The position numbers were made by a program, and so were the translations under genes. Of a stretch of DNA of 62,321 nt, positions 9,557 through 26,564 are shown piece after piece; position 1 is the first letter of the stretch; the number at the start of each line of letters is the position of its first letter. The notes below the pieces were generated by a model. The model saw nothing but the letters and a program-made list of their open reading frames with translations, did not search any database and was not told the origin of the DNA. The stretch lies in the NCBI GenBank assembly GCA_947462815.1, contig CANHQR010000016.1, forward strand, positions 1-62,321. Direction: 5' to 3'. The stretch is from Pseudobdellovibrionaceae bacterium (GTDB lineage: Bacteria > Bdellovibrionota > Bdellovibrionia > Bdellovibrionales > JAMPXM01).

Positions 9557-9688
9557 CTCATGCGAGTGGCCAGCGACGCAAGTTCAGGGCCGACGCCAAA
9601 GTGGGTGCCCATCCTTGAGCGGTGGGCTCGAAATGATGAGGCCGAGGCGCCGAAGCGCCCCTGTAAAGCCTACTCGATCAACGAGGAA

Positions 9689-10283: not shown

Positions 10284-10712
10284 CTAGAGTGGCAGCAGGT
10301 AGCGGTGGAGAGCGTGATCCATCATGGCGTACTGCTGCTCAAGGCTCACTTGCACATGGCGTGGAATGAAGCGACTGAGCAGGCCGCGAAACACTTCGCG
10401 ATGCACGAGTCGCGTGCCGTTGGCCTCGGCATACAGCAAAAACTCATGCTCGCCGGTGAGGAGCCCGTGCACACCGCCGCGCCAGGCGAGACGATGGGTG
10501 TGACGGACTTCGAGAAGAGTGACGCGAAAGCGTAAGCCGACACCCCAAAGTCGTACGCTGAGGTGCGCGGGCTTTCCGGGCGCGAGGCCCTGGGGCGCTG
10601 CGAATTGGCGAATCAAGGGATTCCACTGTTTGTACTGAGGTGTGTCCACGAGGGCTTGCCAGACCCGATCGGGTGGGCAGGAGAATGTGAGGCTCGTTTC
10701 CAAGGTGAACAT
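10284..10712 (-). CDS. SRPBCC-family (START/Bet v1 fold) protein
   Basis: About 142 residues from the ATG at 10712, with GAGG just upstream. The start, FTLETSLTFSCPPDRVWQAL, followed by YKQWNPLI, is the typical opening of SRPBCC ligand-binding proteins: a strand, then the DRVWxAL helix and a Trp-Asn-Pro turn. The C-terminal half ends in the long helix that closes the hydrophobic cavity. These proteins bind or process lipids and small hydrophobic molecules in the cytoplasm; the ligand cannot be predicted. It stands alone, divergent from the gene at 10895, and the 10713-10894 gap has no recognised element. Confidence 0.75.
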   Translation of the reverse strand: MFTLETSLTFSCPPDRVWQALVDTPQYKQWNPLIRQFAAPQGLAPGKPAHLSVRLWGVGLRFRVTLLEVRHTHRLAWRGGVHGLLTGEHEFLLYAEANGTRLVHREVFRGLLSRFIPRHVQVSLEQQYAMMDHALHRYLLPL

Positions 10713-10894
10713 CAACCTCAGTTTGCAGCTGGCGTGAGGCGGCGTCGATGCTCGTCGTCCGAGGCCTCGACGAAAGTCGAAGCTTGGCGCTTCGCCGCGA
10801 CGGGTACAAGCCGATCAATTTATCCTAAAGAGAGTGGGATGGACGACGTGAAGTCGACGTATGGGGCGCGGGAGATCGCGCTGAGGGTGGCTTG

Positions 10895-12382
10895 ATGTTT
10901 CTCTTCAGAACTTGGCGGACCGTTTCGTTTTTTTTGCCCTGCGGATTAACGGGCGTCGCCTTCGTGCTCATGACTTTGCCGCCGCCGGAATCGCGGGCAG
11001 AGTCGCGGGCCAACCCTCGTCTCGGAGAAACGACGTCCAGTGCACCCGCTTCTCAAGCTGCGTCGCGACCCAACTGCACAGATTTGTATGCTGATCTTCC
11101 GCCCAACAATCGAGGCTCGGTGTGTGAAACTTGGCGCAGTCAGCGGCGGTCCGTGCTGGAGACTTACTCGGATGGCAGTGTGTTGCCCAATCCGCTGCGA
11201 CTGAGAAACTGGAAGACGGATCGAGAGCTGCGCGTCTTGGGTGCGCAGCCGCCACCGGCCACGCTCATCGCGGAACAGCGAACACATATCGATGCGCTTC
11301 GGGAAACTTTCATTCAGCGCGTCACACAGGGTCAGCCCGAGTCTCGTTGGACGGATCATCAGCGCTATTTGGTGAACCGCATTCGCGAACTGCGCATCGG
11401 CTACGCGGACGCCTCCGTCGATATTTGTCAGGAGACGCCGATGAACGCCAACTACCATGCGGCGAGCAACACGATCACCTTGTGCCCGCTCGCTGCGCGA
11501 TTGCCACGCGAATCGCTGCTACCTTTGCTGGCGCATGAAATTGGCCATCTGGCCGATCCCTGCAACTTCGTCGAGCCGCACCGGTTTCGCGGGGCTTTGC
11601 GAAATGCCGATGCTTCTTTGCGCATGCGTGAGCCGGCCATGGAAGCTGTACGGACTTGCCTCAGCTCTCGTCCACAAAGCGAGGTCGACGAAGTGGTGAG
11701 ATATTTAGCGGGTGGGAATCGGCAGCGCGAGCAAGCTCTGACCTTGTTTGCGGGCGATCGAAACTCCGCAACTCGAAGATCTGTTGAGGCCCTGACGGCT
11801 TGTGGTCTGCTGGATAGCCCCGCAGTGCGAGCCCCGAGTACGTATTCCCAATATCCCTTTCTCGAATCGGCCCGTTGCGTGAGCCAGAACTTACCTGAAG
11901 ATCAGCACTTGAATCTTCTCAACAACCGAGGCGCGCCTCGCGGTCAGACCTTTCAGCGAGATCCTATCGGGGAATCGACTCCGATCCACAACGATCATAT
12001 TCGGTGCGGACATCCGGAGCGCGTCGGCAGTGATCCCGAGAGTCTGCACGATGTGCATAAAGAGTGCTTAGCTGATCAAATTGGCGCGGATCTCTTAGCC
12101 GCCCACATTGCGAGAAGTCCGCAGAGTTTTCGCGAGCGCCCTCGGCAGGATTTGTTGTTTTTCTTTTCGGCCGCGCATTGCGATGAGGCGGGAGAGTTCG
12201 ACATCAACTACCCGCGCAGCCATTTGCGCGTCGGCACCTACTTGCAGATTCGCGAAGTCCAAAATTGGAGTGGCTGTGAAGGTCAGCGCTTTGCGCCGAT
12301 TTGCCCGCTGGGTTCAAGTCGCGGGCGCGAAGGGCGCGACGGGCGCGACGGATCGTCGGCCGTGCCGCGCACCTCGCGTTAA
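10895..12382 (+). CDS. exported HExxH putative zinc metallopeptidase with Cys-rich body
   Basis: 495 residues from ATG 10895; an in-frame TTG precedes it directly. An N-terminal membrane/signal segment (FFLPCGLTGVAFVLMTLPPP) is followed by a low-complexity linker. A zinc motif HEIGH sits at about residue 213 (LLAHEIGHLADPC), and a later HKECLADQIGADLLA could give the Glu ligand and second-shell Asp, as in gluzincin-type peptidases. About twelve cysteines suggest disulfides in the periplasm or outside the cell. The C-terminus ends in a few Gly-x-x triplets (GREGRDGRDG). It is convergent with another HExxH protein, 6 bp away. Peptidase activity is inferred from the motif alone. Confidence 0.6.
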   Translation: MFLFRTWRTVSFFLPCGLTGVAFVLMTLPPPESRAESRANPRLGETTSSAPASQAASRPNCTDLYADLPPNNRGSVCETWRSQRRSVLETYSDGSVLPNPLRLRNWKTDRELRVLGAQPPPATLIAEQRTHIDALRETFIQRVTQGQPESRWTDHQRYLVNRIRELRIGYADASVDICQETPMNANYHAASNTITLCPLAARLPRESLLPLLAHEIGHLADPCNFVEPHRFRGALRNADASLRMREPAMEAVRTCLSSRPQSEVDEVVRYLAGGNRQREQALTLFAGDRNSATRRSVEALTACGLLDSPAVRAPSTYSQYPFLESARCVSQNLPEDQHLNLLNNRGAPRGQTFQRDPIGESTPIHNDHIRCGHPERVGSDPESLHDVHKECLADQIGADLLAAHIARSPQSFRERPRQDLLFFFSAAHCDEAGEFDINYPRSHLRVGTYLQIREVQNWSGCEGQRFAPICPLGSSRGREGRDGRDGSSAVPRTSR

Positions 12383-14252: not shown

Positions 14253-14585
14253 ACGGGTTCCCCTTTTTGAACCGTGAAAAATAGAGCGGAGGCACTTCGC
14301 CTCGCCAGCACGGCTCGGCATCTGGACTTTGCAAAGTCGTGCTCGACTTTGCCTACTGCGGAACGGATCGAGATTCGATTTGGCGAGGACTGCCCAAAGT
14401 TTTTACGATTCCAGAGACACTTTGGGTCACAATGCCACACGCGAGCTTTGCACCGCGGTGATTTGCTGAACGAGTGAAATTGGAGCGTGACTCAAGAATG
14501 AGTTCGTTTCAATTCTAGGGGCGTCGACTTGACGGCGTGCCTAACGGACTCATGGCGAGTCTCGGCCGAGAACGTGGAGAACCCA
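14253..14585. other. intergenic region with a 9-bp inverted repeat at 14331-14352
   Basis: This is the divergent upstream region of the transglycosylase-like and CoA-transferase genes. It contains GCAAAGTCG / CGACTTTGC (14331-14339 and 14344-14352, loop TGCT), itself overlapping the palindrome GACTTTGCAAAGTC. This may be an operator or a hairpin. No promoter hexamers stand out. Confidence 0.45.
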
Positions 14586-15896
14586 ATGCAGCCTCTTCAT
14601 CCTATGCCCATCGCCAATGACAACGCTGGAAAACAAAATCGGGTTCAAGAGCTGGAGTGGCGTCGCTATCTGAAGCCGGGCCAGCGGGTCTTTGTGCATG
14701 GTGGTGCGGCTACGCCGAACGCTTTGCTTCGGTCGCTCGTTCGCGAGGGAGATACGCTTCGTGATCTTGAGTTCGTTCACTTGCACACTGAGCTCCGCGG
14801 CGTGACCGCCAGCGAGTTGGTTCGTCACTTCCGGATTACCAATTTGTTTGTCGGTAAAGACTATCGCCGCCTCCTCGACCATCAGCGTGTCGATTACTTG
14901 CCGGTCTTTCTCAGCGAAGTCCCCGGTTTGTTCCGCAGCGGAAACCTGCCGTTGGATGCAGCTTTGGTGCACGTTTCGCCTCCCGATGCGCATGGATTCT
15001 GTTCACTCGGTACGAGTGTGGACGGGGCCAAAGCGGCGGTCGAGACCGCGAAGGTTGTGATTGCCCAGGTGAATTCGCAGATGCCGCGTGTGCATGGCGA
15101 TGGTTTCGTCCACATCTCCAAGTTTGCCGCTTGGATCGAGGTCAACGAGGAGCTGCCGGAGGTTCCGTCGAAACCTCTGAGTGATGTGGCTCTACGAATT
15201 GGCGAACATGTGGCGAGCCTGGTCGAAAATGGTTCCACCCTTCAAGCTGGCATCGGCCAAGTTCCCGATGCTTGTTTGGCGGCCCTTCGCGGGCACAAGT
15301 ATTTGGGGCTACATTCCGAGATGTGGTCGGATCATGCCTTGTCGTTGATTGAATCGGGAGCGATCGATAATTCGCAAAAGCGCGTGCATCCGGGCAAGTG
15401 CGTCTCGACTTTTGTGACGGGATCGCGGCGCCTGTATGAGTACATACACGACAATCCCAGTGTGATTCAACTTGAGGCCAGCTACGTGAACTTACCCAAC
15501 GTGATCGCGCGTAACCCCAAAGTTGTGGCCATCAATTCCTGTGTGGAGATCGATCTGACGGGTCAAGTTTGTGCGGACTCGATCGGATCACGGGTCATCT
15601 CGGGCGTTGGCGGGCAGATGGACTTCATGCGTGCGGCGGTGCTGAGTGAGGGTGGAAAGCCCATCATGGCGTTCAGTTCGCGTTCAGAGAAGGGTCAGGC
15701 GAGAATTGTTCCGCAGCTCAAACCGGGAGCGGGTGTGGTCACCACTCGCGCGCATGTGCATTGGGTGGTCACGGAGTGGGGAGCTGCCAACTTAGCCGGC
15801 TTGAATCTCAGTCAGCGGGCGCGTGCGCTGACCGATCTTGCACACCCAGAAGATCGTGAAAGTCTGCGTCGCGCTTGGGCGCACGCGGACTTTTGA
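14586..15896 (+). CDS. acetyl-CoA hydrolase/transferase family CoA-transferase
   Basis: 436 residues from the ATG at 14586 (GGAG Shine-Dalgarno). The family pattern is clear: VFVHGGAATPNALL near the N-terminus; VSPPDAHGFCSLGTSVD; the catalytic-Glu segment LGLHSEMWSD; and ISGVGGQMDFMRAA with KGQARIVPQLKPGAGV in the C-terminal half. These enzymes, such as 4-hydroxybutyrate or acetate/succinyl CoA-transferases, exchange CoA between acyl-CoA and a free carboxylic acid in the cytosol. Substrate specificity cannot be read from the sequence. It is monocistronic, convergent with the PAP2 gene 8 bp away. Confidence 0.88.
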   Translation: MQPLHPMPIANDNAGKQNRVQELEWRRYLKPGQRVFVHGGAATPNALLRSLVREGDTLRDLEFVHLHTELRGVTASELVRHFRITNLFVGKDYRRLLDHQRVDYLPVFLSEVPGLFRSGNLPLDAALVHVSPPDAHGFCSLGTSVDGAKAAVETAKVVIAQVNSQMPRVHGDGFVHISKFAAWIEVNEELPEVPSKPLSDVALRIGEHVASLVENGSTLQAGIGQVPDACLAALRGHKYLGLHSEMWSDHALSLIESGAIDNSQKRVHPGKCVSTFVTGSRRLYEYIHDNPSVIQLEASYVNLPNVIARNPKVVAINSCVEIDLTGQVCADSIGSRVISGVGGQMDFMRAAVLSEGGKPIMAFSSRSEKGQARIVPQLKPGAGVVTTRAHVHWVVTEWGAANLAGLNLSQRARALTDLAHPEDRESLRRAWAHADF

Positions 15897-15904: not shown

Positions 15905-16720
15905 TCAAGCCTTCATTGAAGCGGCGGCGTGCTTTGGCCGACGCGACCACAATAACCAAGCCATGATACTCGCCATGATGCCGCCCGCAGCGGCGTCGGC
16001 AACATAGTGCTGTTTAATGAGCACGGCCGAAACCGCCACGAGTCCTGCCATTGTCACATGGACGATCATCACCGTTGTCATGCCCCTTGAAGTCATAGGT
16101 CGCGTGAACCACTTTGCTTCGTATCGCACAAAGAACAAGGCGATTAGCGCCGTCTGGGCGACATGCAAACTTGGGAAAGTGTTGTAGGGATGGTCGGCTC
16201 GATAAAGTGTCTCGAGAATCGCGCGCGCCCAATCCTCCGGGAATTGCCAAGGCGTATTCGGGAGCGCGGGCCTCTCGATGGGAGTCGGGTACAAAATGAA
16301 GATGATGTAGGAAAAGGTGTTCATGGCCGCTTGCGCGAGAGTCAAGCGCGCGAGGCTTGCCACGCTCGGTGCAAAAGCGAGGGGGGTCAACAACAGTGGA
16401 TAATACAAAATGTAGAAGACGACCGTCTCCGGAACGTAAGGAAGTGCTGCATCGATTGAGGTAGCGATCGGCAGAGCCGGGCGATTCCAAGGATTCATCG
16501 CCGCGAACTCGTTCGTTCCTAAATAACCGATGAGCAAATAGCCCAAACCGATCAGATAAGACCAACGGGCCCGAGACCACTCCGAGTCGAGCCAGGGAAA
16601 CTCACGCCAGTGGAATTCGTGCCACGGAAGATTGCCCCGAGACCAAACCCCGGGGCCTGAAGAGGGTGCAGCTTCGCGCGCTTTTTTAGATTTCGATTTC
16701 GATCGCGGAGGTGCCGACAT
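15905..16720 (-). CDS. PAP2-family membrane phosphatase/phosphotransferase
   Basis: The 271-residue protein has a basic, Lys/Ser-rich cytoplasmic N-terminus and about six membrane segments. The PAP2 signatures are NTFPSLHVAQT (motif with the first catalytic His) and KQHYVADAAAG (second His with Asp four residues on), typical of the inositolphosphorylceramide-synthase-like branch. It would dephosphorylate or transfer a phospho-headgroup from a lipid phosphate at the inner membrane. It lies 3 bp after the acyltransferase stop, so it is the last gene of the long minus-strand operon that starts at 24262. Confidence 0.8.
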   Translation of the reverse strand: MSAPPRSKSKSKKAREAAPSSGPGVWSRGNLPWHEFHWREFPWLDSEWSRARWSYLIGLGYLLIGYLGTNEFAAMNPWNRPALPIATSIDAALPYVPETVVFYILYYPLLLTPLAFAPSVASLARLTLAQAAMNTFSYIIFILYPTPIERPALPNTPWQFPEDWARAILETLYRADHPYNTFPSLHVAQTALIALFFVRYEAKWFTRPMTSRGMTTVMIVHVTMAGLVAVSAVLIKQHYVADAAAGGIMASIMAWLLWSRRPKHAAASMKA

Positions 16721-16723
16721 AAT

Positions 16724-17581
16724 TTAGGTCAGCACGTCTTCGGGATGAGAGCAAGCGCGCTCCACATGTCGGACAAGGCCCGCGAGATGAAAGCCGTCGT
16801 ACAGTCGATGATCGAAAGTCGCTGAGATCGAAAGTTGCTCGCGCGCCACCACATCGCCTTGCTCGCTCACCGTCGGTCGCAGCGCCTTCTTGCCGATCGT
16901 GAAAACAAATCCGCAGCGTGAATAGGGGACAAGGGGAGCAAAGCCCGCATCGATCCCGAGGCTTCCGACATTCGTGACCATGAAGGTGCCAAAGGGATCT
17001 TCAGCGAGGCCCAAAGCACTGAGCTTCAAGTTCAGCGTGTAGCTGACCACCGACATCAGTTGAATGAAAGGGAACATCAGGAAAAACGGAATGGCTTGCA
17101 AGGCGCCTTTGGCCTTGGCGAACTCTTTGTCTTCGCCTTTACGAATCTTGGCGGCCTGCTGACGAACCTCTTGGGCAATCTCGATGAGGTCTTTACCTTC
17201 GAGCTTTCGAAGTGTGACACCCGAAAGATCCACATCATGATGGCCTTTGGCCGGAATGGCGACTTGGACGAGAGCAGCAACGTGACGTCGCACATAGGGG
17301 CGTCCAAAGCGCAAAAGGACGTTGGCCTCAGGATGCGCTTTAAAATACGCCGCAAGGACCGCGGTGAAAAAGTGTGTGTAGGTCAGTGCCTCGCCGCTGG
17401 CCTCGCGACGAACCGCGAGGAAGCGATCGATCGGCTCCGCATCCACACAGGTCCAACCGTAGACTGAGGGATCGTAAGCATCGCGCCAAGTTCCCAGCGA
17501 AAGTTTGCGAAAGCCGGAGACGCGTTCGACTCTTTCGCAGTCGACGTTGCGAAGCGAGGACCAGAAACTCGGAGAGCTCAT
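16724..17581 (-). CDS. stand-alone E2-type (2-oxoacid dehydrogenase) acyltransferase domain
   Basis: This 285-residue protein consists only of a CAT-like catalytic domain: TYTHFFTAVLAAYFKAHPE at about residue 75, FGTFMVTNVGSLGIDAGFAP, and the active-site motif ATFDHRLYDGFH (H and D of HxxxD) near the end. It has no lipoyl domain or E1/E3-binding domain, so it is not a normal dehydrogenase core. It probably moves acyl groups between CoA or another carrier and an unknown acceptor. It starts by ATGA overlap with the HAD gene, and the PAP2 gene follows 3 bp later. It has an internal hydrophobic segment (IPFFLMFPFIQLMSVVSY) that could contact membrane or substrate. Confidence 0.8.
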   Translation of the reverse strand: MSSPSFWSSLRNVDCERVERVSGFRKLSLGTWRDAYDPSVYGWTCVDAEPIDRFLAVRREASGEALTYTHFFTAVLAAYFKAHPEANVLLRFGRPYVRRHVAALVQVAIPAKGHHDVDLSGVTLRKLEGKDLIEIAQEVRQQAAKIRKGEDKEFAKAKGALQAIPFFLMFPFIQLMSVVSYTLNLKLSALGLAEDPFGTFMVTNVGSLGIDAGFAPLVPYSRCGFVFTIGKKALRPTVSEQGDVVAREQLSISATFDHRLYDGFHLAGLVRHVERACSHPEDVLT

Positions 17582-18129
17582 GGGGTGATCTCCTGTTGAG
17601 AAGTGAAAGCGGATGCAAAGTCAGCAGCAGGCCAGAGTTTCAGAAGTTCGGTTGTGTAGGCCTGATCGACAAGTCGCTGGGCTGGGTGAGAGATCCCGTA
17701 GCCCAAGTAGTGGGCGCCCAGAAAATGAGCGAGTCGAGCATCAGAAGCTCGGTCACCCAAAACGGCGAGGGCGCGCTCGAGCTTTTGCCTCTTCGCCCAG
17801 TCCACTTTGCTGTGCGGGTAGGAGCTTGCTGTTTGGTGAGAAGCTAAAAAGCTCGATTGTTTCACAGGTGTCAGAGGATTCGCGGTCAGCCAGAGGATCT
17901 CTCGATCGGCTTCTTGAGCGAAAGATTCAAACAGTGAAATGCGATCACGTATTTGGGATTCGCTCTGCTCCCACGCTTGATCGATGGCGCGATCGGCTTG
18001 ATCGGGAGACCAGCGCCAGAGTGCGTGACCCCAAGTGATCGGAGAAAAGGGATGGGCACGTAGGAACTCGGCCATTGAATACAGCGTCAGATCCAAGTCG
18101 ATGATGACGAGACGAGACCCGGAGTTCAT
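17578..18129 (-). CDS. HAD-superfamily hydrolase
   Basis: 183 residues. Motif I is LVIIDLDLTLYS (nucleophile Asp and general acid Asp, DxDLT). Motif II is LWLTAN. The motif III Lys is probably in SKVDWAKRQK, and motif IV is GDRASD. It would be a cytosolic phosphatase or phosphonatase-type enzyme; the cap is small and helical. It overlaps both neighbours by 4 bp (ATGA at 18126-18129 and 17578-17581), so expression is tightly coupled to the GNAT-like and E2-type genes. A final dephosphorylation step in the same pathway is inferred. Confidence 0.8.
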   Translation of the reverse strand: MNSGSRLVIIDLDLTLYSMAEFLRAHPFSPITWGHALWRWSPDQADRAIDQAWEQSESQIRDRISLFESFAQEADREILWLTANPLTPVKQSSFLASHQTASSYPHSKVDWAKRQKLERALAVLGDRASDARLAHFLGAHYLGYGISHPAQRLVDQAYTTELLKLWPAADFASAFTSQQEITP

Positions 18130-18956
18130 CGCTCGATCCTCGAGCCGAGTTGCCGAGTGAAGTTCTTTACGCCGGGCAGTAAGCGAAGCGGATGCCATAA
18201 ACCGATGCAGAGCACTTCGCTTTGGCTGGGAAGGATCTGCTCGCGATAGAACTGGAGAAGCTGCGGATAGAGTCGGTAATCATCGCTGGGGAGTTGAAAA
18301 CGAGCATCTTGATTGGCGCCCCAAAGAATCGGTGAGTCGCTGATGGGAAGTCCTAATGCGCTCTGTACGGCTTGCAACAGCTCTTCGGGGGCTGGAGTTA
18401 AGCCTCCGGCAGCATCGAAGGTCGGGTAAAATAGGGGTTCGGTGGCTCGCTTCAAGCTCTGGTAGCTCGCAGGGCTTGAGCACTTCGCCGAAAGCCAGAT
18501 GCCGAGCGTGGCGAACTTGAGAGGATGCTGGGCGAGGCCTCGGCGGACGAGTACCGTCGGCAACTCACGTGCGAGTCTCTGTCCGCGATGTTCGGTATGA
18601 ACCACGGATAATCCGAGATGGAGGAAGGGCCAGCGAAGGCCTCGCCAGTGAATCTCACTGAGGTGTCCGAACATCATGGCGACCCGCTCGCCGCGCCGAT
18701 CGTGGGCCTCGAGGAGAAGATTGTACTTTTTGAGGCGTTCATCGAGATAGTCTGCCGTGCATTGGCCCAAATGGGCTTGGAGGAACTGCAGACGTTCGGC
18801 GCGTGCCGCGACATCCAGAGCCTGGCCGGGTGAGGCGATAAAGCTCATGCGATATTTGTGCTGCGGAGGCCTTCGGTTGACCGAGTTCTCGCTCTTCATC
18901 GATGCCGTGTGAGCGGCCATTGTGTCGCTCGAGCTCGGCTTGGGTTCGACCTGCAT
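18126..18956 (-). CDS. GNAT-like N-acyltransferase, family not recognised
   Basis: The start at 18956 has a strong AAGGAGAG Shine-Dalgarno 7 bp upstream, giving 276 residues; a longer in-frame reading to 19028 would have to use TTG. The centre (LGLSVVHTEHRGQRLARELP) looks like the beta4-alpha3 acetyl-CoA pyrophosphate loop (RGxGL/A type), preceded by a strand pair as in GNAT enzymes. The rest is divergent, including a C-terminal half with YRLYPQLLQFYREQ and CIGLWHPLRLLPG. It is coupled to the HAD gene. Acyl transfer is plausible; the acceptor is unknown. Confidence 0.5.
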   Translation of the reverse strand: MQVEPKPSSSDTMAAHTASMKSENSVNRRPPQHKYRMSFIASPGQALDVAARAERLQFLQAHLGQCTADYLDERLKKYNLLLEAHDRRGERVAMMFGHLSEIHWRGLRWPFLHLGLSVVHTEHRGQRLARELPTVLVRRGLAQHPLKFATLGIWLSAKCSSPASYQSLKRATEPLFYPTFDAAGGLTPAPEELLQAVQSALGLPISDSPILWGANQDARFQLPSDDYRLYPQLLQFYREQILPSQSEVLCIGLWHPLRLLPGVKNFTRQLGSRIER

Positions 18957-19024
18957 CGTCGCTCTCCTTGGTCTCGGGCCTTTGCGTACCTCAGTGCCCG
19001 GCCTCCTCGAGGAGGAGTTTTGTC

Positions 19025-20161
19025 TCAATAAATGAGAACGGGTGGGGTGCTTTCGGCTTCCCGAGCCTCACGCACGCGCTGGAAAATTTCAGGCAGATAG
19101 CTTTCTCCGACGGATGTGATTCGCAGGAGACAGCGCCCGTCCTCGCTGGCTTTCAGTCGCGTTGAAATTCCAACTTGCATGAGAGCTTTATGAAAGGCGC
19201 TGAGCTGGAGCTCATTGGCGTGACCCAAGATGAAGTTACCGCCGGGTGGAACTTGCAGTTGGACGCCATAGGACCAAGCGAGAGCTGAAAGTCCACGATG
19301 CAATTCCTGACGAACGTCGAAAATACTTTGGCGTTCGACGGCATAGAAAGCGCGGTGATCCAGGCCATGCTGAAGCACGTAAAGTGCGGCTTCGGTGACG
19401 AGCTTTCGATTGTAGACGCGTTCAAAGTGTTCTTGCACCAAAGGTATATTGGTGGCGATTAAACCAAGTCGGAAACCGGCGATCGGTAGACACTTCGCAA
19501 AGCTTTTCACGGCAAGGGTGGGGCGATGAGAACAAAGTCGCTCGGCCACCCATGCCGCTTGGGCCTCACGTGCCGCGGTCGGCATGTAGTCCTCATAGGT
19601 CAAATCGAGCACCAACCACTTCGGCGTGCCCGATGAGGCGAGTTGCGCCTCGAAGTCTGGAACACTGATGCTCTCGCCGGTGAAGTCTCCGGTCGGATTG
19701 TTCGGCGTGCAGTGATAAACGATCTCAGCTTCACGAAAATCCTTCAGCATTTGGAGACCCAGCTGAGCGGCGAAGGTGCTGGCGTGCTCGTAAGAAGGTG
19801 CCCAAGACGTGGCCCAAGACAAAGCGCCCGAACGCTCGGCGATCTGTCCACCGGGTCGAGCGAGAGTCTGGCGAGCGCTGGTTTCATTGAGGCGCGCTGC
19901 CAGTAAGCTGTGGAGCAGAGCCTCGTCGGCCCCATGTGTGGCCCAGCATGGAGCCGCTCCAGACCAACCGGTCACTTCCCCGAGCAAATCCAGCAGGGGT
20001 CGTGGAGAGCTCATGGCATATTGGCGGGTGAGGTTTTCGACTTCAAAACCGCGAGCAAGATCGGGATGAATGCGCCCCCAATACTCGTTGTAGTCGAGGT
20101 GAAACATACGCGCACCGCGAGTGCGCGAGGCATAAGAATACGGAGGCGGACGACCTGACAT
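19025..20161 (-). CDS. fold-type-I PLP aminotransferase (class I/II, HisC-like)
   Basis: 378 residues, or about 360 from the ATG at 20107. It has the class I/II pattern: THGADEALLHSLL (glycine-rich phosphate site), CTPNNPTGDF, WLVLDLTYEDY (Asp and Tyr contacting PLP), AVKSFAKCLPIAGFRLG (Schiff-base Lys), and a C-terminal RLKASEDGRCLLRITSVG with the carboxylate-binding Arg. It is closest in feel to histidinol-phosphate aminotransferase or threonine-phosphate decarboxylase enzymes. The neighbours are not amino-acid biosynthesis genes, so it probably supplies or modifies an amino-containing building block. A 107-bp gap to the preceding DTW gene may hold an internal promoter, but none is obvious. 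Confidence 0.85.
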   Translation of the reverse strand: MSGRPPPYSYASRTRGARMFHLDYNEYWGRIHPDLARGFEVENLTRQYAMSSPRPLLDLLGEVTGWSGAAPCWATHGADEALLHSLLAARLNETSARQTLARPGGQIAERSGALSWATSWAPSYEHASTFAAQLGLQMLKDFREAEIVYHCTPNNPTGDFTGESISVPDFEAQLASSGTPKWLVLDLTYEDYMPTAAREAQAAWVAERLCSHRPTLAVKSFAKCLPIAGFRLGLIATNIPLVQEHFERVYNRKLVTEAALYVLQHGLDHRAFYAVERQSIFDVRQELHRGLSALAWSYGVQLQVPPGGNFILGHANELQLSAFHKALMQVGISTRLKASEDGRCLLRITSVGESYLPEIFQRVREAREAESTPPVLIY

Positions 20162-20268
20162 GAGGGCGTTAAATCAGATTTGCCTCGTTCGGGGGACGCA
20201 TCCCGAGGGCTTGAGTAAAAACTGGATCTTGTCACAAATAAAACAACACCGGGACTTTCACAGGGTGG

Positions 20269-21012
20269 TCAAACTTGCTCAAACTCCTCGGCGAGTTGCA
20301 GGTTCGGTGCATAGGTTCCCGATGGATCGCGCTCCAAATGCTCACGAATCAATTTCGCAAAAGCCAGGCGCAGACCTCGCGCGACCGTGGGGGCCTGCAA
20401 AAATTCCCCATCAGGGCGGCTTTCAGGGTCCAAAGCGAAGCGTTCAATGAATTCGGCGGTGGCCTCGAGGGTTGAGAGGCAGTTCGGAGCCGGTTGCTGA
20501 CGAACGATGAAGCGTGAGCTTTGTTGGGGGCTAAACATAAGCCGCGGGAGGCTCGTGAGTTGAGGGCTTCGCAGCATCCGTCGGGCCGTCGCCCAAGTTC
20601 CGTCGATCAAGATGAGCAAGAGTCGTCGATCATCGGGGGGCATGGGCATCAAGAGCGATCGTCGTGCCTGCAAATCGAGTCGATCCAGATCTACCGAACC
20701 AGGTCCTGGCGATAGCACAAAAGGCATGAGGCGCGTGTCTGAAAGCAAGCGCTGTAGACCTGGGTGATCGATGAATTCTTCGCCCTCATAGCAGATGGAG
20801 TTCTCGATCAGGGCATGCAGCAGGCGGCCCGAGGCCAAGCGGCGCTTTCGCTCGATGGGATGAATGAGGATGAGAAGTTGAAAAGGCAAGCTCTGCGGCT
20901 TGAAGTCTGCGCAGAAGCAAGCGAAACGAGGTTGCCAGCAGCGCGAGCATCGGCTGCGGCGCTCGATCGCGGACGGCTTTGCATGGGTGAAAGTTTGCGG
21001 ATCTGGGCTCAT
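20269..21012 (-). CDS. DTW-domain aminocarboxypropyltransferase (TapT/YfiP family)
   Basis: The start at 21012 overlaps the upstream stop (ATGA), giving 247 residues. An N-terminal zinc knuckle (RCSRCWQPRFACFC, CxxC...CxC) is followed by the DTW signature LILIDGTWATARRML and by NCLSTLEATAEFIE. Family members move the 3-amino-3-carboxypropyl group of S-adenosylmethionine onto tRNA uridine (acp3U at position 47 in bacteria). All hallmark motifs are present, so normal tRNA modification is the default call. Its location inside a putative biosynthetic operon leaves open a small-molecule acceptor. Confidence 0.85.
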   Translation of the reverse strand: MSPDPQTFTHAKPSAIERRSRCSRCWQPRFACFCADFKPQSLPFQLLILIHPIERKRRLASGRLLHALIENSICYEGEEFIDHPGLQRLLSDTRLMPFVLSPGPGSVDLDRLDLQARRSLLMPMPPDDRRLLLILIDGTWATARRMLRSPQLTSLPRLMFSPQQSSRFIVRQQPAPNCLSTLEATAEFIERFALDPESRPDGEFLQAPTVARGLRLAFAKLIREHLERDPSGTYAPNLQLAEEFEQV

Positions 21013-23138
21013 GCGTCGCCTCTTGCCGGTGAGGATGCGAGTGAAAAAGTAAGGCGCTGCATGAGGCGCGGAGCTCGCGCGCAATCGGGCGCGAGCTCTT
21101 CTTCGCGAACGCCAAAGCTTTCATCCACGATAAAGCCACGTTGGCGATAGAAGTTGGCGCTTTCGACCCAGGCGAAAATCTCGATTTCTCGATAATTCGG
21201 CGAGAGCACCTGCGGCAGCTGTTCCAATAGAGTGCGCAGCATTTGGGTCATGTGGCCCTGACCGCGATGCAGGGGATGCGTGACAAAGCCACGCAGGCGA
21301 ATGCGCTCCGGCGTTTGTGCAATGAGGTGAACCCATGCAACAGGCGGCTTGGCCTCCGAAGGTTGCCAACCCAAACTCATGCGCAGGTCGCGCCGAGCAC
21401 TGGCTCGGCCTGAGATTTGGCGGGCCGCGAACACGTTCGCCCCGAGAACGGCATCGGGAACGGCTTGCCGAAAAGCGGCGAGCCAGGCGTCGTGAGGAAC
21501 CTCTCGAAGTGGAGCTGTAAATGTCGATGGCCCTCGAAGCAGTGGAGGGATTTGTGTAAAGTCGGGATCTCGTCGAACGCAGCGCTGGGTCGGGCGACGT
21601 CCCACTCCAATTGAATAAAGAAAACTTTGTGTGTGGGCGAGGAGTTCCGACCAGGCCTCGTCGACCTCAGGCTTTGTTGTTGGGGCTGTCTCGCGGCCTA
21701 CGTCACTCGTCGCAGCAGTTGGATGTAGAGTGATGTCGAAGTGGCGAGCTTTGATGAAGCTCAGCCAACGCCCCAGGTTTTCGCTTTCATGCACGCACTT
21801 CGGCGACGCGCCCTCCGCTCGTTGAGCGACGCTCCAATGCGGGAGCACGCGAAAGTGCCCTTGGCTGAGAAGCTGGGATCGCCAAGCGGCCGCAAGGACC
21901 TCGGCGGAGCCCAGATCATACTCCAAAAAGTGTCGCATCATCCAAGCGGGATCAGGAAGAGCTCGCAGTGCATCCGGTTGGTAAGCGATGCTCGTCGCGG
22001 CAATGGCCGGCGAGGTCAGCGGCGCCTCGGTGAAGAAGATCTGGTCGGCATGCAAGCGACGATCGGTGAGTTCGTCGTCAAGTCCCCAACCCGCGATCCA
22101 CGTGCTGGGGCGCCAATCGCGGAGGGGGCGCAATTGCTGGTAGAGATCATAGAAGGGAATTGCAAAATTCTGATCACAGTGCGGGAGTTGCTCGGCGAGA
22201 CGTTGTCGCCATTGATCATGTTCCGCCTGCACAGCCTCAAAGCCATGCAGCTTGGGTCGCGCTGAAAGCTCGGGATAATCGTGAGCGAGAATCAAGGGCT
22301 TTGAGGTGCGAGTTCCCATCTTGCCATAGCGCTGGTGTTGAAACAGCTGGTGCAGGATCGGATTTTGCAAAAGTTGGGCGGCGAACTGTTCGGGTAAGAT
22401 TTGAAAGAAACTGGGAAAAGCCGGCAAATTCTGACGGATGAAATGTCGAAAGAGTCCACACAGGCGCTCGCTCTCCATCAGCTGCCAAAGACTGGGCTCG
22501 TACTCCTCGCGCTCCGGTCCGGATTTTTTGTAGTGCGCTTCGCCTTGGGCAATGATCGGGCAAGCCTGGGGAAATTTTTGGCGGTGAAGATCGATGCCGC
22601 GAAGAAGTGCAAGGAGTTGCGGACTGACGATTTGATCGGTTTCAGCATCCGCTTGTAAATCCGGTGAGCGCCAATATTCCAAAAGCTTGAGGTCGAGCTC
22701 GCGCGTTTGAAGATCGAGTCGAGTCGTCCGGGCTTTGAACTGGAGGATAAAACGTCGTGCATCCGCCAAGTCAGCGGCGTTAATCTCGGCACCTTGCGAA
22801 TCCAGCCATCGCAAGGTGACCACACCCAAGCGCAGCGGCTCGGGAAAAGTTTCGGCGGCTTCGATGAGTGCGGTGAAGGCGATTTCGGAGTCCAAGCCGC
22901 CACTATAAAACAGTGTCGGAATCAGCTTCGCCTCAGTGCAGGTGGTGAAAATGTATTCAGCGGCCCACTTGTTGGCCTCGCGAAAACTTTGGGCTTCGCT
23001 CTCAGCTCGGCCAAAGCGTGCGACAAAAGTTTCGCTTTCGGCCAGACGCTGGTGCATCCAGCGCGTATCACCTTCTTGGGTCCGGTAGCCAAACTCGAAA
23101 GCGGGCTGGCCGTCGCGAATGCGTGTGTAGGGCCACAC
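21009..23138 (-). CDS. PP-loop ATPase fused to a C-terminal GNAT domain
   Basis: 709 residues from a GTG start, 2 bp after the preceding stop. The N-terminal PP-loop is FYSGGLDSEIAF (about residue 79), the ATP-pyrophosphatase motif used by asparagine synthase, NAD synthase and tRNA-thiolation enzymes. The next 350 residues are paralogous to the neighbouring PP-loop protein: shared EYEPSLWQLMESE, RHFIRQ, FFQILPEQ and RPKLHGFEAV blocks. The last 190 residues form a GNAT acetyltransferase: RIRLRGFVTHPLHRGQGHM (acetyl-CoA loop) then FAWVESANFYRQRGF. Adenylation of a carboxylate or carbonyl followed by acyl transfer on the same chain is inferred. I do not know this fusion from characterised systems. 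Confidence 0.75.
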   Translation of the reverse strand: MWPYTRIRDGQPAFEFGYRTQEGDTRWMHQRLAESETFVARFGRAESEAQSFREANKWAAEYIFTTCTEAKLIPTLFYSGGLDSEIAFTALIEAAETFPEPLRLGVVTLRWLDSQGAEINAADLADARRFILQFKARTTRLDLQTRELDLKLLEYWRSPDLQADAETDQIVSPQLLALLRGIDLHRQKFPQACPIIAQGEAHYKKSGPEREEYEPSLWQLMESERLCGLFRHFIRQNLPAFPSFFQILPEQFAAQLLQNPILHQLFQHQRYGKMGTRTSKPLILAHDYPELSARPKLHGFEAVQAEHDQWRQRLAEQLPHCDQNFAIPFYDLYQQLRPLRDWRPSTWIAGWGLDDELTDRRLHADQIFFTEAPLTSPAIAATSIAYQPDALRALPDPAWMMRHFLEYDLGSAEVLAAAWRSQLLSQGHFRVLPHWSVAQRAEGASPKCVHESENLGRWLSFIKARHFDITLHPTAATSDVGRETAPTTKPEVDEAWSELLAHTQSFLYSIGVGRRPTQRCVRRDPDFTQIPPLLRGPSTFTAPLREVPHDAWLAAFRQAVPDAVLGANVFAARQISGRASARRDLRMSLGWQPSEAKPPVAWVHLIAQTPERIRLRGFVTHPLHRGQGHMTQMLRTLLEQLPQVLSPNYREIEIFAWVESANFYRQRGFIVDESFGVREEELAPDCARAPRLMQRLTFSLASSPARGDA

Positions 23139-23140
23139 GA

Positions 23141-24262
23141 TCAGCTTTCCTGCGCCGACGGCGTGTGCGTGAACCCGGGCGGAAGTTCGCGAGGATCGAA
23201 GTCCGAGTCCCAGGGAGAGTTCTTGAAACCCGCAAGGCGAGACGCCAGGTGGGGGCGATCGGGGTCTGATCGAAGTTGTTGAATCAAGGTCGGTACGGGC
23301 GTTTTGAAAATTTGCTGCGCTGGCGGAAGTCGCCGAGCCAACTCTTCACGAAGGCGCGTTTCGGCTTCAGCCACTCGCTCGTAGCCGGTGTACTTGGGTC
23401 GAGACTGCAGGCCAAAATGCGTTTGGTAGATGGCGAGTTTGCTCGACATCGAATCGAGTCGCCGATAGCACTGGTCCTTCCAGAGCGCTTGCGCCTGGGG
23501 ATCCATGAGCCAGGACAACATGATCTCCGGAGTGAATTGGAAAAAGCCGGGGCAGGCCTCGCGTCCGCGTACAATGAAGTGGCGGTACCAGCTCGCGATT
23601 TTCTCTTTCTCGTAGAGATCCCACAACGAAGGATGATACTCGTCGCTCTCTGGTAAATTCGGACGGCGTTTCACAATGTAGTTCTCGCCACTTCCCATGA
23701 TGCAATAGCCGGGAATCTGATCGGCGAGCCACATGGTCGGGAGCAGCTGTGGGCTGAGGCAAGTTGTCGCCTCGGCATAACTCCAAGCTTCGCTCTGCCA
23801 AAACTTAAGCAAGTCGAGATGATAGAAGTCGTAGGGAATCCCGAGCGTCTCGCAGGTGTTCACGGCCCAGGCGATGTCGTGCAAGTTGAGATCATTTTGA
23901 AAGCGCAGGATCGCGGCTCGAACGGGGACCCCCGCCTCATGAAAGCTTCGCAACGCCACTTCGCTGTCGGCGCCACCTGAGAACATCACATGGAGGCAAG
24001 CGGCCGATCCTGCCGCCTCGGCAACGCGTTTCGCCGTGCGAAGGCATTCTTCGCGAAAGCTTCCCGGCGGACGCTCGCATCGGCCATAGCGAACAAACCA
24101 TGTATCCTGCGGACTCTCGCGAAAGCCAAAAGGGCGTTCCTCGCCCGAGGGCGAGACGTAACCGAAAACGAAATGCTGGCGATCGCTCAGTTGCGGAACG
24201 GGTCTGTGGGTTGCGCGAGATTCGACTGTCGCGGATGGGGGGCGTTGGGATGCAGTGCTCAT
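23141..24262 (-). CDS. PP-loop ATPase, paralogue of the downstream fusion
   Basis: 373 residues from the ATG at 24262. The PP-loop MFSGGADSEVAL lies at about residue 92, followed by LSPQLLPTMWLADQIPG, GSGENYIVKR, EYHPSLWDLYEKE, RHFIVRG, FFQFTPE and RPKYTGYERV, most of which recur in the gene at 21009-23138. There is no glutaminase domain, so it is not a complete asparagine synthase. It should adenylate a substrate for attack by an amine or sulfur nucleophile. It is the first gene of the long minus-strand operon and is divergent from the oxygenase gene. The tandem arrangement suggests a heterodimer or two related successive steps. Confidence 0.75.
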   Translation of the reverse strand: MSTASQRPPSATVESRATHRPVPQLSDRQHFVFGYVSPSGEERPFGFRESPQDTWFVRYGRCERPPGSFREECLRTAKRVAEAAGSAACLHVMFSGGADSEVALRSFHEAGVPVRAAILRFQNDLNLHDIAWAVNTCETLGIPYDFYHLDLLKFWQSEAWSYAEATTCLSPQLLPTMWLADQIPGYCIMGSGENYIVKRRPNLPESDEYHPSLWDLYEKEKIASWYRHFIVRGREACPGFFQFTPEIMLSWLMDPQAQALWKDQCYRRLDSMSSKLAIYQTHFGLQSRPKYTGYERVAEAETRLREELARRLPPAQQIFKTPVPTLIQQLRSDPDRPHLASRLAGFKNSPWDSDFDPRELPPGFTHTPSAQES

Positions 24263-24326
24263 GTGTTTTGAGCCTAACGCGTGGGTGAAGGTTTGCGTAG
24301 CCAAATTTGGAGATGCTAACGTTCTG
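24263..24326. promoter_or_regulatory. bidirectional promoter region of the putative biosynthetic locus
   Basis: Only about 64 bp separate the chosen starts of the divergent PP-loop gene (24262, minus) and oxygenase gene (24327, plus), so both promoters must overlap here or extend into the coding ends. No clean -35/-10 pair or dyad stands out. The assignment rests on gene arrangement. Confidence 0.4.
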
Positions 24327-24956
24327 ATGATGATCTTTGAGCGCCTGGATCGAGGACTATTTTCGGTCGATATTGGGAACTTGCGAAAGTTTGTTCTCGA
24401 CGAAGTCTTGCCGCAGGCCGGCCCGCCGACCATGCTCGGGCAGTACTTCGGCGGCTGGTCGGTGTGGTCATCCAATGGTGAGATCCAAGACGGCTGGCAA
24501 AGGGGCGAGCTCCGTTACGCGGCGACCACTCCCGAACAGCGCCAAAGTTTAGAAATCCAAAGCGGAATTCTGCCTTCCAGAGCTTATCGCGTGCCGACGC
24601 CGATTTGTCGAGGTCCCTTGGCCGACGCCATGATGCAGATTCGAGCATTGGGTCTCGAGCCTTCGCGCGCTCGCTTGTCTTTGCTCAAGGCGCAGGGCCG
24701 ATCCACACGGCATCGAGATGCGCAGGATGACGAGTACTGCGTGCGACTGCATGTCCCGATCATGACGTCCGAGGCCGCCGTGTTCGCTTGTGACGAAGGG
24801 GAGGCCCACTTGCCGGCCGACGGCTCCGCTTACTTGCTGGCCGTCAATCGCTGGCACCAAGTCTTCAATCGCGCCGACACAGATCGACTTCACTTGATTA
24901 TGAATGTCGTGGATCGGCCGGGTGTTTCTCGCTTTCATCGGTGGGAGCCTCGATGA
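24327..24956 (+). CDS. Asp/Asn-hydroxylase-like (proline cis-4-hydroxylase-type) Fe(II)/2-oxoglutarate oxygenase
   Basis: 209 residues from ATG 24327, with GGAG upstream; an in-frame GTG at 24255 lies inside the divergent gene and is less likely. The C-terminal half has the jelly-roll pattern of the Asp_Arg_Hydrox family: RHRDAQDDEYCVRLHVPI (first His and Asp ligands, HxD), a DEGEAHLPADGSAYLL strand pair, VNRWHQVFN (second His ligand), and DRLHLIMNVVD (2-oxoglutarate-binding Arg). Enzymes of this fold hydroxylate Asp/Asn side chains or free proline. It is coupled by ATGA overlap to an ATP-grasp ligase, so the hydroxylated product is probably an amino acid or peptide used by the ligase. Confidence 0.72.
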   Translation: MMIFERLDRGLFSVDIGNLRKFVLDEVLPQAGPPTMLGQYFGGWSVWSSNGEIQDGWQRGELRYAATTPEQRQSLEIQSGILPSRAYRVPTPICRGPLADAMMQIRALGLEPSRARLSLLKAQGRSTRHRDAQDDEYCVRLHVPIMTSEAAVFACDEGEAHLPADGSAYLLAVNRWHQVFNRADTDRLHLIMNVVDRPGVSRFHRWEPR

Positions 24957-26242
24957 TCTTACTCTTGCAATCTCACACTTGGTTCGACGCCTATCGATAC
25001 TTCACCCTCAAGCGCTATGCGGCGCAGTGGGGTGTGCGTCTCATCAATGTCGTCGAAGCCGGCACGGCGAGCTATCGCGATTTGGATGACACTTCGGCCA
25101 TCCAACGGATCGAAGTGGGAATTCTCTCGACGGACGTTATCCTCGCAGCCTTAGAAAAGCGCGGCCTACGGCCCGCGGATCTGCGTTGGGTGGTTTCGCC
25201 CTCCGAAAATTTGACGAAGCTTGCCGGGAAAATTTCGGAACGCCTTGGATTAGTGGGGCCATCGGCCGAGTCGGCTGAGCTAGGTCTCGACAAAGCGGCT
25301 TTGCGAGAGTTCTGTCAAAAGCGGGGATTGGGTGGTTTGCCGAGCTGGAGCGCTCAGCCGGGTCCCAGCTCTCCCTCCGAGGGCGAAGCTTGGGAGCGCG
25401 AACTTCGCCAAGCTTCGAACGGCGAGTTGATTGTCAAACCACGACGTGGCCGCGGCGGATTTCAAAAGCAGCCTTGGCACTATCAGATCTTTCGAGATGC
25501 CGAGGCGCTCATCCGCTCGGACGCTTGGGCGCAGATGTTGGCGATTGGCGAGTGGCATGTCGAGGAGTACCGTTCCTCAGCAGAGCGACCTGCCTGGGAC
25601 GTGCATGTCGACTTCGGTGCATCAGACTATGAGATTTTTTTGACGGCGCAGACCTGGTGCTCCGCCCATGATCCTCGGATCGTGATTTCGGAAGGGCACG
25701 TGGCCATGCCGCCTGAGCTTTTGGCTTGTGTCGAACGACATGTGCAAGAGATCTGGCGGGCTGGTTATCGGCGGCATTTGGGCAATCTCCAATTCGTCGA
25801 AACCGCACATCGCTCCGGTCGCTCTGGCTCCGGCGCGCAAGGCCCGCTTCACCTCATGGATTTCAACACGCGCATGGCGGGAGTTTTGGCCTTGCTCGAA
25901 GAAGGCATGTGCCCAGATCTCGAGAAGAGGGCGGTGGAGATGTACGCCTTGGGGCGACCGCGACGCCCACTGAACTGGCGTTACACGCATTATCGGAAAG
26001 GGCCCTTGCCCGTTCTGGCGGGTCGCCGTTTGAAGTCGTCCAAGTGGCCGAGCCTCCAAGATGAGCGCCGTCACCACTATCTGCTGAAATATGAGGAGAA
26101 TTTGCGCAAAGGCGAAGTGACGCCCGACGTGATTCACTCTCTGCAACCCAAACCGCAAGTGGCCGCGCTTGGAAATAGCCTGCAAGAAGTCCGTTCGCGG
26201 CTTGACGAGTTTTGGCGCGACTGTTTGTTTGAGTACGATTAA
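24953..26242 (+). CDS. ATP-grasp ligase
   Basis: 429 residues from the ATG at 24953, which overlaps the oxygenase stop (ATGA). The N-terminal alpha/beta domain is followed by the ATP-grasp core: GELIVKPRRGRGGFQK (phosphate-binding Lys and Gly-rich loop), a WHVEEYR strand giving the adenine-contacting Glu, and LHLMDFNTRMAG (metal-binding DxNxR). ATP-grasp enzymes join a carboxylate to an amine, thiol or similar via an acyl phosphate. A pronounced Arg/Lys-rich C-terminus (residues 340-380) is unusual. It is the only evident ligase of the locus and would form the amide bond of the product. The substrate is unknown. Confidence 0.78.
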   Translation: MILLLQSHTWFDAYRYFTLKRYAAQWGVRLINVVEAGTASYRDLDDTSAIQRIEVGILSTDVILAALEKRGLRPADLRWVVSPSENLTKLAGKISERLGLVGPSAESAELGLDKAALREFCQKRGLGGLPSWSAQPGPSSPSEGEAWERELRQASNGELIVKPRRGRGGFQKQPWHYQIFRDAEALIRSDAWAQMLAIGEWHVEEYRSSAERPAWDVHVDFGASDYEIFLTAQTWCSAHDPRIVISEGHVAMPPELLACVERHVQEIWRAGYRRHLGNLQFVETAHRSGRSGSGAQGPLHLMDFNTRMAGVLALLEEGMCPDLEKRAVEMYALGRPRRPLNWRYTHYRKGPLPVLAGRRLKSSKWPSLQDERRHHYLLKYEENLRKGEVTPDVIHSLQPKPQVAALGNSLQEVRSRLDEFWRDCLFEYD

Positions 26243-26264
26243 TCGCACTCTGGAGGAACAGGAT

Positions 26265-26564
26265 ATGGGCAGAGAGTTTATCAGTTTTCTTAAAAACTAT
26301 GGCGTGGTGGGCTTGGCCATCGCGGTGATCATCGGCGGTAAATTGAACTCTTTGGTCGATGCCGTCGTGAAAGAGCTGTTGATGCCTTTTGTCGGTTTAC
26401 TCCTGCCGAGCGGCGACTGGCGCAACCTCGCCTTCACTGTGGGCGAGACGAAGTTTGGTGTTGGCCCAGTGCTTGCGGCGGGAATCGATTTTCTCATCGT
26501 GGCGGCCGTCGTTTTTGTGATCGCCAAAAAAGTGTTGCGCGAAGAAGCCGTCAGCAAAAAATAA
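26265..26564 (+). CDS. mscL: large-conductance mechanosensitive channel MscL
   Basis: 99 residues, with a strong GGAGGAAC Shine-Dalgarno before the ATG. The first helix, VVGLAIAVIIGGKLNSLVDAVVKELLMP, is the MscL pore-lining signature. The second membrane helix is AAGIDFLIVAAVVFVIAKKV, and the charged C-terminal helix is cut short. The family averages about 130 residues; the periplasmic loop and C-terminal helical bundle are both short here. It releases osmolytes upon sudden drops in osmolarity at the inner membrane. It follows the ATP-grasp gene by 22 bp and could be read through from it. Confidence 0.85.
   Translation: MGREFISFLKNYGVVGLAIAVIIGGKLNSLVDAVVKELLMPFVGLLLPSGDWRNLAFTVGETKFGVGPVLAAGIDFLIVAAVVFVIAKKVLREEAVSKK

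Follow-up and report, generated by a model that had tools for sequence, protein, structure and literature searches.

The locus and its genes

The window, that is the whole stretch of DNA that we analysed, is a 62.3-kb contig of a metagenome-assembled genome (G000; 3.43 Mb, 96% complete) whose named relatives are Bdellovibrionales. Between positions 15905 and 26242 it carries ten genes, among them two PP-loop proteins, PP1 and PP2, which look like amide ligases of an unnamed family and are the main subject of this study. These genes and the two that border them are listed below; genomes and loci are given throughout by our own G and L numbers.

23141-24262, minus strand: PP1, PP-loop synthetase of an unnamed family, 373 aa; predicted fold like AsnB and beta-lactam synthetase, without a glutaminase domain
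21009-23138, minus strand: PP2-GNAT, 709 aa; PP-loop paralogue (N-terminal half), variable linker and C-terminal GNAT domain
20269-21084, minus strand: DTW-domain protein (PF03942; tRNA 3-amino-3-carboxypropyluridine (acp3U)-transferase family), probable start ATG 21012
19025-20161, minus strand: pyridoxal-phosphate (PLP) enzyme of the HisC/CobD fold-type-I group (Aminotran_1_2), 378 aa, with its lysine in SFAKCLPIAGFRLG
18126-19028, minus strand: stand-alone GNAT acyltransferase (from model and Foldseek search), probable start ATG 18956 or TTG 19028
17578-18198, minus strand: HAD-type phosphatase with a DLDLT motif, probable start ATG 18129
16724-17581, minus strand: stand-alone E2/CAT-type acyltransferase (PF00198), DHRxxDG motif intact, hydrophobic insert
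15905-16720, minus strand: PAP2-type integral-membrane phosphatase or phosphotransferase (PF01569)
24327-24956, plus strand: OXY, 2-oxoglutarate/Fe(II) oxygenase of the Asp/Arg-hydroxylase family (PF05118), HxD...H motif, 209 aa
24941-26242, plus strand: ATP-grasp-like ligase (motifs read by eye), 433 aa, translationally coupled to OXY, in this genome only
14529-15896, plus strand: coat, acetyl-CoA hydrolase/transferase-like, converging on PAP2; left border, outside the pathway claim
26262-26564, plus strand: mscL; right border of the locus, conserved in four relatives

All ten genes named by a first-pass annotation of this stretch are open at their positions. The run of eight minus-strand genes from 24262 to 15905 that it described agrees with the gene coordinates, with 4-bp overlaps or a spacing of 2-3 bp apart from a 107-bp and a possible 68-bp gap. 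Calculated with the likely start codons, the spacings are +2 bp (PP1/PP2), -4 bp (PP2/DTW, DTW starting at ATG 21012), +107 bp (DTW/PLP), -4 bp or +68 bp (PLP/GNAT, for a GNAT start at TTG 19028 or at ATG 18956), -4 bp (GNAT/HAD, HAD starting at ATG 18129), -4 bp (HAD/E2) and +3 bp (E2/PAP2). The coupled, divergent pair is also as described: OXY begins at ATG 24327, 64 bp from the PP1 start at 24262, and its 3' end is overlapped by the start of the ATP-grasp gene.

Pfam matches were found for PAP2 (E = 4.7e-8), the E2-like acyltransferase (2-oxoacid_dh, 2.9e-17), the PLP enzyme (1.5e-11), the DTW protein (1.4e-41), the C-terminal GNAT of PP2 (3.3e-5) and OXY (Asp_Arg_Hydrox, 5e-7). The same search gave no match for the stand-alone GNAT (275-300 aa), the ATP-grasp protein or the HAD protein, the last of which is assigned by its DxDxT motif. 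Non-ribosomal peptide synthetases (NRPS) and polyketide synthases (PKS) had been reported absent, and indeed none of the ten genes has a carrier, adenylation or ketosynthase domain of these systems in Pfam or NCBIfam; precursors of ribosomally synthesised and post-translationally modified peptides, also reported absent, were not systematically searched for.

Two paralogous PP-loop proteins and the AsnB-like predicted fold of PP1

PP1 and PP2 both carry the motif SGGxDSE and belong to one common family (profile E = 1.9e-120 and 1.3e-54); PP1 and the N-terminal half of PP2 are paralogues with 36% identity. Neither of them reaches the cut-off of any PP-loop family in Pfam, NCBIfam or PHROGs, and neither matches the asparagine synthetase family PF00733. 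The nearest Pfam families of PP1 below threshold are tRNA_Me_trans (MnmA; 15.7 bits, cut-off 20.6) and QueC (12.9 bits, cut-off 22).

We then asked what the predicted structure of PP1 resembles. In a Foldseek search of the PDB, the AlphaFold2 model (pLDDT 88.4, pTM 0.85) matched beta-lactam synthetase first (1mc1, E = 1.1e-6), and the next best matches were human ASNS, E. coli AsnB (probability 1.00, E = 4.5e-6 to 1.5e-4) and carbapenam synthetase. These alignments extend over 308-415 columns, which is most of the chain; NMN/NAD (nicotinamide mononucleotide/nicotinamide adenine dinucleotide) synthetase, LarE and MnmA were ranked lower. A profile of AsnB from related genomes also aligns with the PP-loop family (E = 2.4e-7, 109 columns surrounding the PP-loop). 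The N-terminal nucleophile (Ntn) glutaminase domain is absent from PP1: in the model only some 60 ordered residues precede the PP-loop segment, and no such Pfam domain was found.

To see which residues are kept, we gathered 54 related sequences, some of them bacterial and others from viral contigs. S95, G96, G97, S100, N126, D129, K275, K290, G293 and E295 of PP1 are conserved in 53-55 of the 55 homologues. Within the SGGxDS motif, S95, G96 and G97 are found in 54-55 and S100 in all 55, and position 99 is D in 45 and E in nine. There is no invariant cysteine, C168 being present in 34 of 55. The C-terminal K...RxKxxGFE of the PP1 family resembles what we take to be the C-terminal lysine motif of AsnB, which we regard as a lead. 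Judging from fold and motifs, PP1 and PP2 look like acyl-adenylating amide ligases that would work in the manner of AsnB and beta-lactam synthetase, outside PF00733. The first-pass annotation had correctly seen two PP-loop proteins, which prove to be of one family, and had missed this likeness.

In a maximum-likelihood tree PP1 and PP2 fall into two separate, well-supported bacterial clades. Both occur together in G000, G004, G010 and G053 (the last from another family) and as neighbours in the metagenome-assembled locus L056; they are thus two old paralogues that have been kept together in several Bdellovibrionales. PP2 is fused to the GNAT domain in G000, G004 and G010, and unfused copies of PP2 have a GNAT of the same kind nearby in L034, L056 and L064. 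We also considered a standard AsnB as the partner in the host and rejected it, because G000 has no convincing stand-alone copy (best Asn_synthase match E = 3e-4 over 47 positions).

Two further cases deserve mention. In G008 PP1 is broken by a stop codon (L035, 9953-10807) and PP2 lies in two separate frames (L036, 6131-8652), through either decay or sequencing errors. In L044 (G020:C1:28501-48500) there are two PP-loop family proteins in tandem (8626-9765 and 9885-11081), each terminating in a twin-arginine-like leader and then a cysteine-rich tail (...SCCCDYANNLGCIITSPAGCKAHLATCY and ...MWCCCSDGNCFSTTPKMCKQMCL), as if a small secreted cysteine-rich peptide had been fused to the ligase.

The locus consists of separately gained modules

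The locus sits between coat and mscL-DUF481, with EamA and PIP further to the right. The left border is conserved, as coat also lies beside PAP2 in G011 (71% identity). At the same spot, G004 and G010 have PP1-PP2-PAP2, G011 has PP1 with the PLP-GNAT-HAD-E2/PAP2 genes (module B in the following), and G008 has the broken PP2 with PAP2; OXY and the ATP-grasp gene are inserted there in G000 only. Since the same spot holds different gene subsets in relatives, the locus looks composite. A prophage origin was rejected, as both borders (coat and mscL-DUF481-EamA-PIP) are syntenic with relatives that lack parts of the locus.

Module B is a rare module. Its GNAT was found in three of 369 Bdellovibrionota genomes, each time inside a PLP-GNAT-HAD-E2/PAP2 run. 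In G011, PP1-PLP-GNAT-HAD-E2 reaches the end of a contig, and the remaining part of E2, PAP2 and the converging coat are on a second one; in G006 a complete PLP-GNAT-HAD-PAP2-E2 set lies on a contig of 4.2 kb that has no PP-loop genes. The model of the stand-alone GNAT is of moderate quality (pLDDT 64). Its 50 best PDB matches in Foldseek (E = 1e-4 to 1e-3) are acyltransferases of the GNAT fold or proteins related to them, so that the gene at 18126-19028 is, as far as a predicted fold can tell, clearly a GNAT. Searching the PDB by sequence gave nothing for the HAD protein and insignificant matches for the stand-alone GNAT, and a search of plasmids with the PLP gene gave nothing. Relatives of the E2-like gene elsewhere in the order have no other module B genes nearby.

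The DTW protein is a strong member of its family (142.8 bits, cut-off 33.7). Its orthologues (37-46% identity) are found in 24 of 40 relatives, on contigs other than those of the PP-loop genes. Because they are common and unlinked, we consider DTW to be an ordinary gene that has come to lie in the run, and not the pathway member that had been proposed.

The presence of DTW in the run raises the question whether the locus modifies RNA, with the PP-loop proteins acting as thiolase-type enzymes and DTW as an acp3U transferase on tRNA. The only weak family matches of PP1, to MnmA and QueC, point the same way. However, DTW is unlinked in the relatives mentioned above, whereas PP1 is patchy, and the fold search places beta-lactam synthetase and AsnB first. 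tRNA thiolases need a cysteine that is not invariant here, and the neighbours of PP-loop genes elsewhere are metabolic. We therefore rejected tRNA modification as the leading interpretation and hold RNA modification to be very improbable.

In summary, the locus is made up of at least two modules that were gained and lost separately, and it is not the single unit of the first-pass annotation.

The oxygenase follows PP1, the ATP-grasp gene does not

OXY exceeds the PF05118 cut-off (30.1 bits versus 22.6), and its putative iron ligands H129, D131 and H177 (HxD...H) as well as R187 are invariant in 14 of 14 homologues. G004, G008 and G010, which belong to the same taxonomic family, have orthologues at unlinked sites (53-56% identity), and G011 has a 38-residue piece (63% identity). 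Among 79 genomes, seven of the eight with a PP1-type gene have a strong OXY match and vice versa, mostly unlinked; counted by genus, OXY is found in four of five PP1-type genera and PP1 in four of four OXY genera. Fisher's test gives 2e-8 by genome and 3e-5 by genus, which are not clean probabilities, because the genomes are related. A second OXY paralogue of G000 (L160, G000:C48, 9112-10451) lies beside an oxygenase-like gene of our family c26 and a rhodanese protein, and in G062 (L169) OXY and c26 adjoin a gene of the FGE-sulfatase type.

The ATP-grasp gene shows a different picture. Its motifs (KPRRGRGGF, MDFNTRMAG) were recognised by eye; the best NCBIfam model, NF002563, scores 12.9 bits, far under its cut-off, and a PDB sequence search gave insignificant matches only. 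We found no homologue in the 79 relatives, in IMG/VR (searched for close relatives only), in 50,697 phage genomes or in plasmids. Since none of these sets has a homologue, the gene falls outside the conserved core, in which it had been placed, and it would be at most a local addition.

Could the spot between coat and mscL simply collect unrelated accessory genes without a common pathway? The different subsets in G004, G010, G011 and G008, and the OXY/ATP-grasp insertion in G000 only, would fit such a variable spot. On the other hand, most of the run is joined by 4-bp overlaps, and PP1/PP2, the PP2-GNAT fusion and PLP-GNAT-HAD-E2/PAP2 are conserved associations. Moreover, OXY co-occurs with PP1 even where the two are unlinked. 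As linkage is conserved in related genomes, a chance grouping of the genes is excluded, and we regard the variable spot as an improbable explanation. The homologues are not singly scattered: relatives have PP1-PP2-PAP2 or PP1-PLP-GNAT-HAD-E2-PAP2 in the corresponding position of the chromosome. The first-pass description of the locus as an undescribed biosynthetic locus is thus supported by conserved linkage, after removal of DTW, of ATP-grasp as conserved core and of the single unit.

The PP-loop family in viral cassettes

Scanning IMG/VR with the PP-loop family yielded 36 loci. On many contigs of uncultivated viruses the PP-loop gene belongs to a conserved cassette with GNAT, desaturase, oxygenase, short-chain dehydrogenase/reductase (SDR) and radical SAM genes; TauD and a second, AsnB-like PP-loop protein also occur within 4 kb (all-against-all comparison of neighbours and profile counts). 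The linkage of the family with oxygenase, GNAT and desaturase genes thus extends to other bacteria and to viruses, a connection that the first-pass account did not have.

To quantify the linkage, we compared the DNA within 4 kb of the PP-loop gene with the flanks, at approximately equal DNA lengths. The counts near and far are 26 and 3 for OXY, 18 and 1 for the desaturase (DESAT), 29 and 4 for the GNAT-like family GNATWP, and 10 and 0 for SDR. In 26 viral loci, many of them on related contigs, this corresponds to densities per 10 kb of 1.12, 0.77, 1.25 and 0.43 near the gene, against 0.12, 0.04, 0.16 and 0 in the flanks. Since these same loci supplied the profiles, the contrast between near and far is the evidence here and not the number of matches. 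Starting from viral desaturase loci, we find a PP-loop gene no more than 8 kb away in 63 of 79, mostly arranged as C6-PP-GNATWP-DESAT. Of 80 loci anchored on ThyX, 13 have a PP-loop gene, and all 13 of these have OXY and DESAT; since the anchor was taken from a cassette-bearing virus, these loci are not a neutral background. OXY as a strict partner of the PP-loop gene in viruses was rejected, because its closest viral relatives are mostly without one.

There are Bdellovibrionales loci with nearly the same gene set as the viral cassettes, and the bacterial loci L034 and L065 have almost the full set (PP-loop, GNATWP, DESAT, OXY, SDR and radical SAM). In the tree the viral and bacterial PP-loop proteins interleave; the starred branches require at least four changes of label, and a movement of the family between the two groups is therefore probable. 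The viral nature of the contigs is taken from the IMG/VR label, from PHROG matches to phage ATPase and endonuclease near one cassette, and from BFVD matches to uncultured Caudovirales. Among 50,697 phage genomes there was no match for PP1, and no named phage record in this set matched two viral PP-loop proteins.

The viral loci also hold families of their own. Family c10 (L078, 12469-13617; L091, 14520-15590; and relatives) is a second PP-loop family of the viral cassettes with the motifs SGGIDS and SGESGDQLFG, AsnB-like by profile comparison and without a Pfam match. GNATWP (L091, 10948-11565; L073, 7266-9091; and relatives) adjoins the viral PP-loop gene, has a conserved C-terminal WP.D..I...L and likewise no Pfam match. 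L066 and L067, labelled as a Nitrososphaerales archaeon, carry a PP-loop gene and two desaturase genes and are placed within a viral branch by the tree; they are probably viral contigs that were binned with the archaeon.

The recurrence of the cassettes in viruses might suggest that proteins of host or virion are modified by 2-oxoglutarate-dependent hydroxylation of Asp, Asn or Arg, N-acetylation and amidation of side-chain carboxylates. PF05118 includes aspartyl/asparaginyl hydroxylases, and modification of ribosomal proteins has been suggested as a role of phage GNATs (PMC7824862). The viral desaturases, SDRs, TauD-type enzymes and aminotransferases, however, fit small molecules or lipids better, and we saw no candidate substrate protein beside the cassettes, although none was sought. 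Protein modification appears quite unlikely to us, if slightly less so than the variable spot.

A proposed pathway and its relation to known systems

Our preferred interpretation is an undescribed modular biosynthetic pathway with PP1, PP2, the GNAT fused to PP2 and OXY as its core and with amide formation as the proposed reaction; we consider the chances for and against it to be evenly balanced. What we observed is the gene content, conserved linkage or co-occurrence, family relations and the predicted folds of PP1 and of one GNAT; from these we infer the adenylation chemistry, the order of steps and a lipid-like product as follows. PP1 and PP2, probably together, would adenylate a carboxylate with ATP, and a bound amine would attack the adenylate to give an amide. 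Because there is no glutaminase domain, the amine may come from free ammonia or from an amino-bearing intermediate. The GNAT domain would acylate an amine of the same intermediate, and OXY could hydroxylate it. In G000, module B may supply or finish an amino-phosphate building block at the membrane, where a PLP-derived block would be acylated and dephosphorylated by GNAT, HAD, E2 and PAP2; PAP2 and the hydrophobic acyltransferase suggest that the last steps take place there. The ATP-grasp protein, specific to G000, may add one more residue. The product would most likely be an amide-linked amino-lipid or an N-acylated small molecule; a lipid is a tentative choice, which we would rather doubt than assume.

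How does this compare with known systems? Asparagine synthetase B shares with PP1 the SGGxDS motif and a predicted-fold match over most of the chain, whereas PP1 lacks the Ntn glutaminase and a PF00733 or NCBIfam match and has at its N-terminus a strand region of its own, some 60 residues long. Beta-lactam synthetase forms an amide in a small molecule without using glutamine. It and carbapenam synthetase are the best structural matches of the PP1 model, but the identity in the structural alignment is 11-14%, and the neighbours of PP1 are not those of clavam or carbapenem clusters. The ornithine-lipid pathway (OlsB GNAT, OlsA, OlsC/LpxO-type) has a similar logic of GNAT, acyltransferase and PF05118 hydroxylase; it has no place for a PLP enzyme, a PP-loop pair, HAD or PAP2, and no gene of the locus matches the OlsA, OlsB or OlsC families in NCBIfam.

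NRPS-independent peptide or metabolite operons with ATP-grasp, AsnB-type PP-loop and GNAT enzymes have been predicted before (PMC2922099). They have in common with our locus an AsnB-type PP-loop enzyme, GNAT, 2-oxoglutarate oxygenase, PLP enzymes and peptide ligases. On the other hand, our locus has no paralogous Met-tRNA synthetase or cupin, its PP-loop family is another one, and its ATP-grasp gene is not conserved. A stearoyl-CoA-type desaturase and an Asp/Asn beta-hydroxylase have been reported as single phage genes, for example in pelagimyophages (PMC7029224), so that single members are shared with the viral cassette; the passages of that report on these genes do not mention a cassette centred on a PP-loop gene. 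A literature search found no paper that describes one. New here are the unnamed ligase family and its viral branch, in an NRPS-free biosynthetic cluster of the amide-ligase type.

Several observations weigh against the proposed pathway. The structural match of PP1 to AsnB and beta-lactam synthetase is partial (template modelling (TM) score 0.3-0.4), partly because the known enzymes bear an extra glutaminase-type domain, and the sequence match to AsnB is limited to the first half of the PP-loop domain. The core enzymes are known here from their genes and, for PP1, from a predicted model, and no substrate can be read from their sequences. G004 and G010 (genus g5) keep PP1-PP2-PAP2 without PLP, GNAT, HAD and E2, and G011 has PP1 and module B with no PP2 detected; because these genomes hold different subsets, a single obligate pathway is not shown. 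Finally, module B rests on three genomes, and the closest viral relatives of OXY are mostly without a PP-loop gene.

PAP2 and the hydrophobic acyltransferase, which point to the membrane, could also be read in another way, namely as a decoration of sugars of lipopolysaccharide, capsule or peptidoglycan, in which the PP-loop pair, GNAT, oxygenase and module B would carry out amidation, amidination, acylation and hydroxylation. WbpG/WbuX-type amidotransferases, which are PP-loop enzymes, act on O-antigen sugars, LpxO is an oxygenase of the PF05118 family, and some viral cassettes also have glycosyltransferase-like and methyltransferase-like genes. Yet the locus itself has no glycosyltransferase, nucleotide-sugar enzyme, HisH/HisF-like ammonia partner or polymer export gene, and the fold of PP1 matches beta-lactam synthetase and AsnB (in a comparison that left out WbpG). 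Modification of the envelope is therefore unlikely in our view, though the least unlikely of the alternatives.

Returning to amide formation, an amide-containing compound or lipid that serves bacteria and viruses alike is the probable product of the cluster. A bolder version, which we think possible but not likely, is that an undescribed class of amide ligases centres a cassette moving between Bdellovibrionota and large uncultured DNA viruses, with a shared metabolite or lipid serving infection or predation. If true, one unnamed enzyme family would account for many unannotated genes in huge viruses, in marine and freshwater viruses and in predatory-type bacteria, and viruses would carry whole small-molecule or lipid pathways based on an amide ligase. 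The bacterial locus would then offer a compact, expressible gene set for finding the product, and a profile of the PP-loop family would annotate many viral contigs at once.

As a separate observation, five viral contigs of 335-608 kb (L209, L424, L428, L430 and L241) carry OXY or the PP-loop/desaturase cassette, and very large phages are thus among the carriers.

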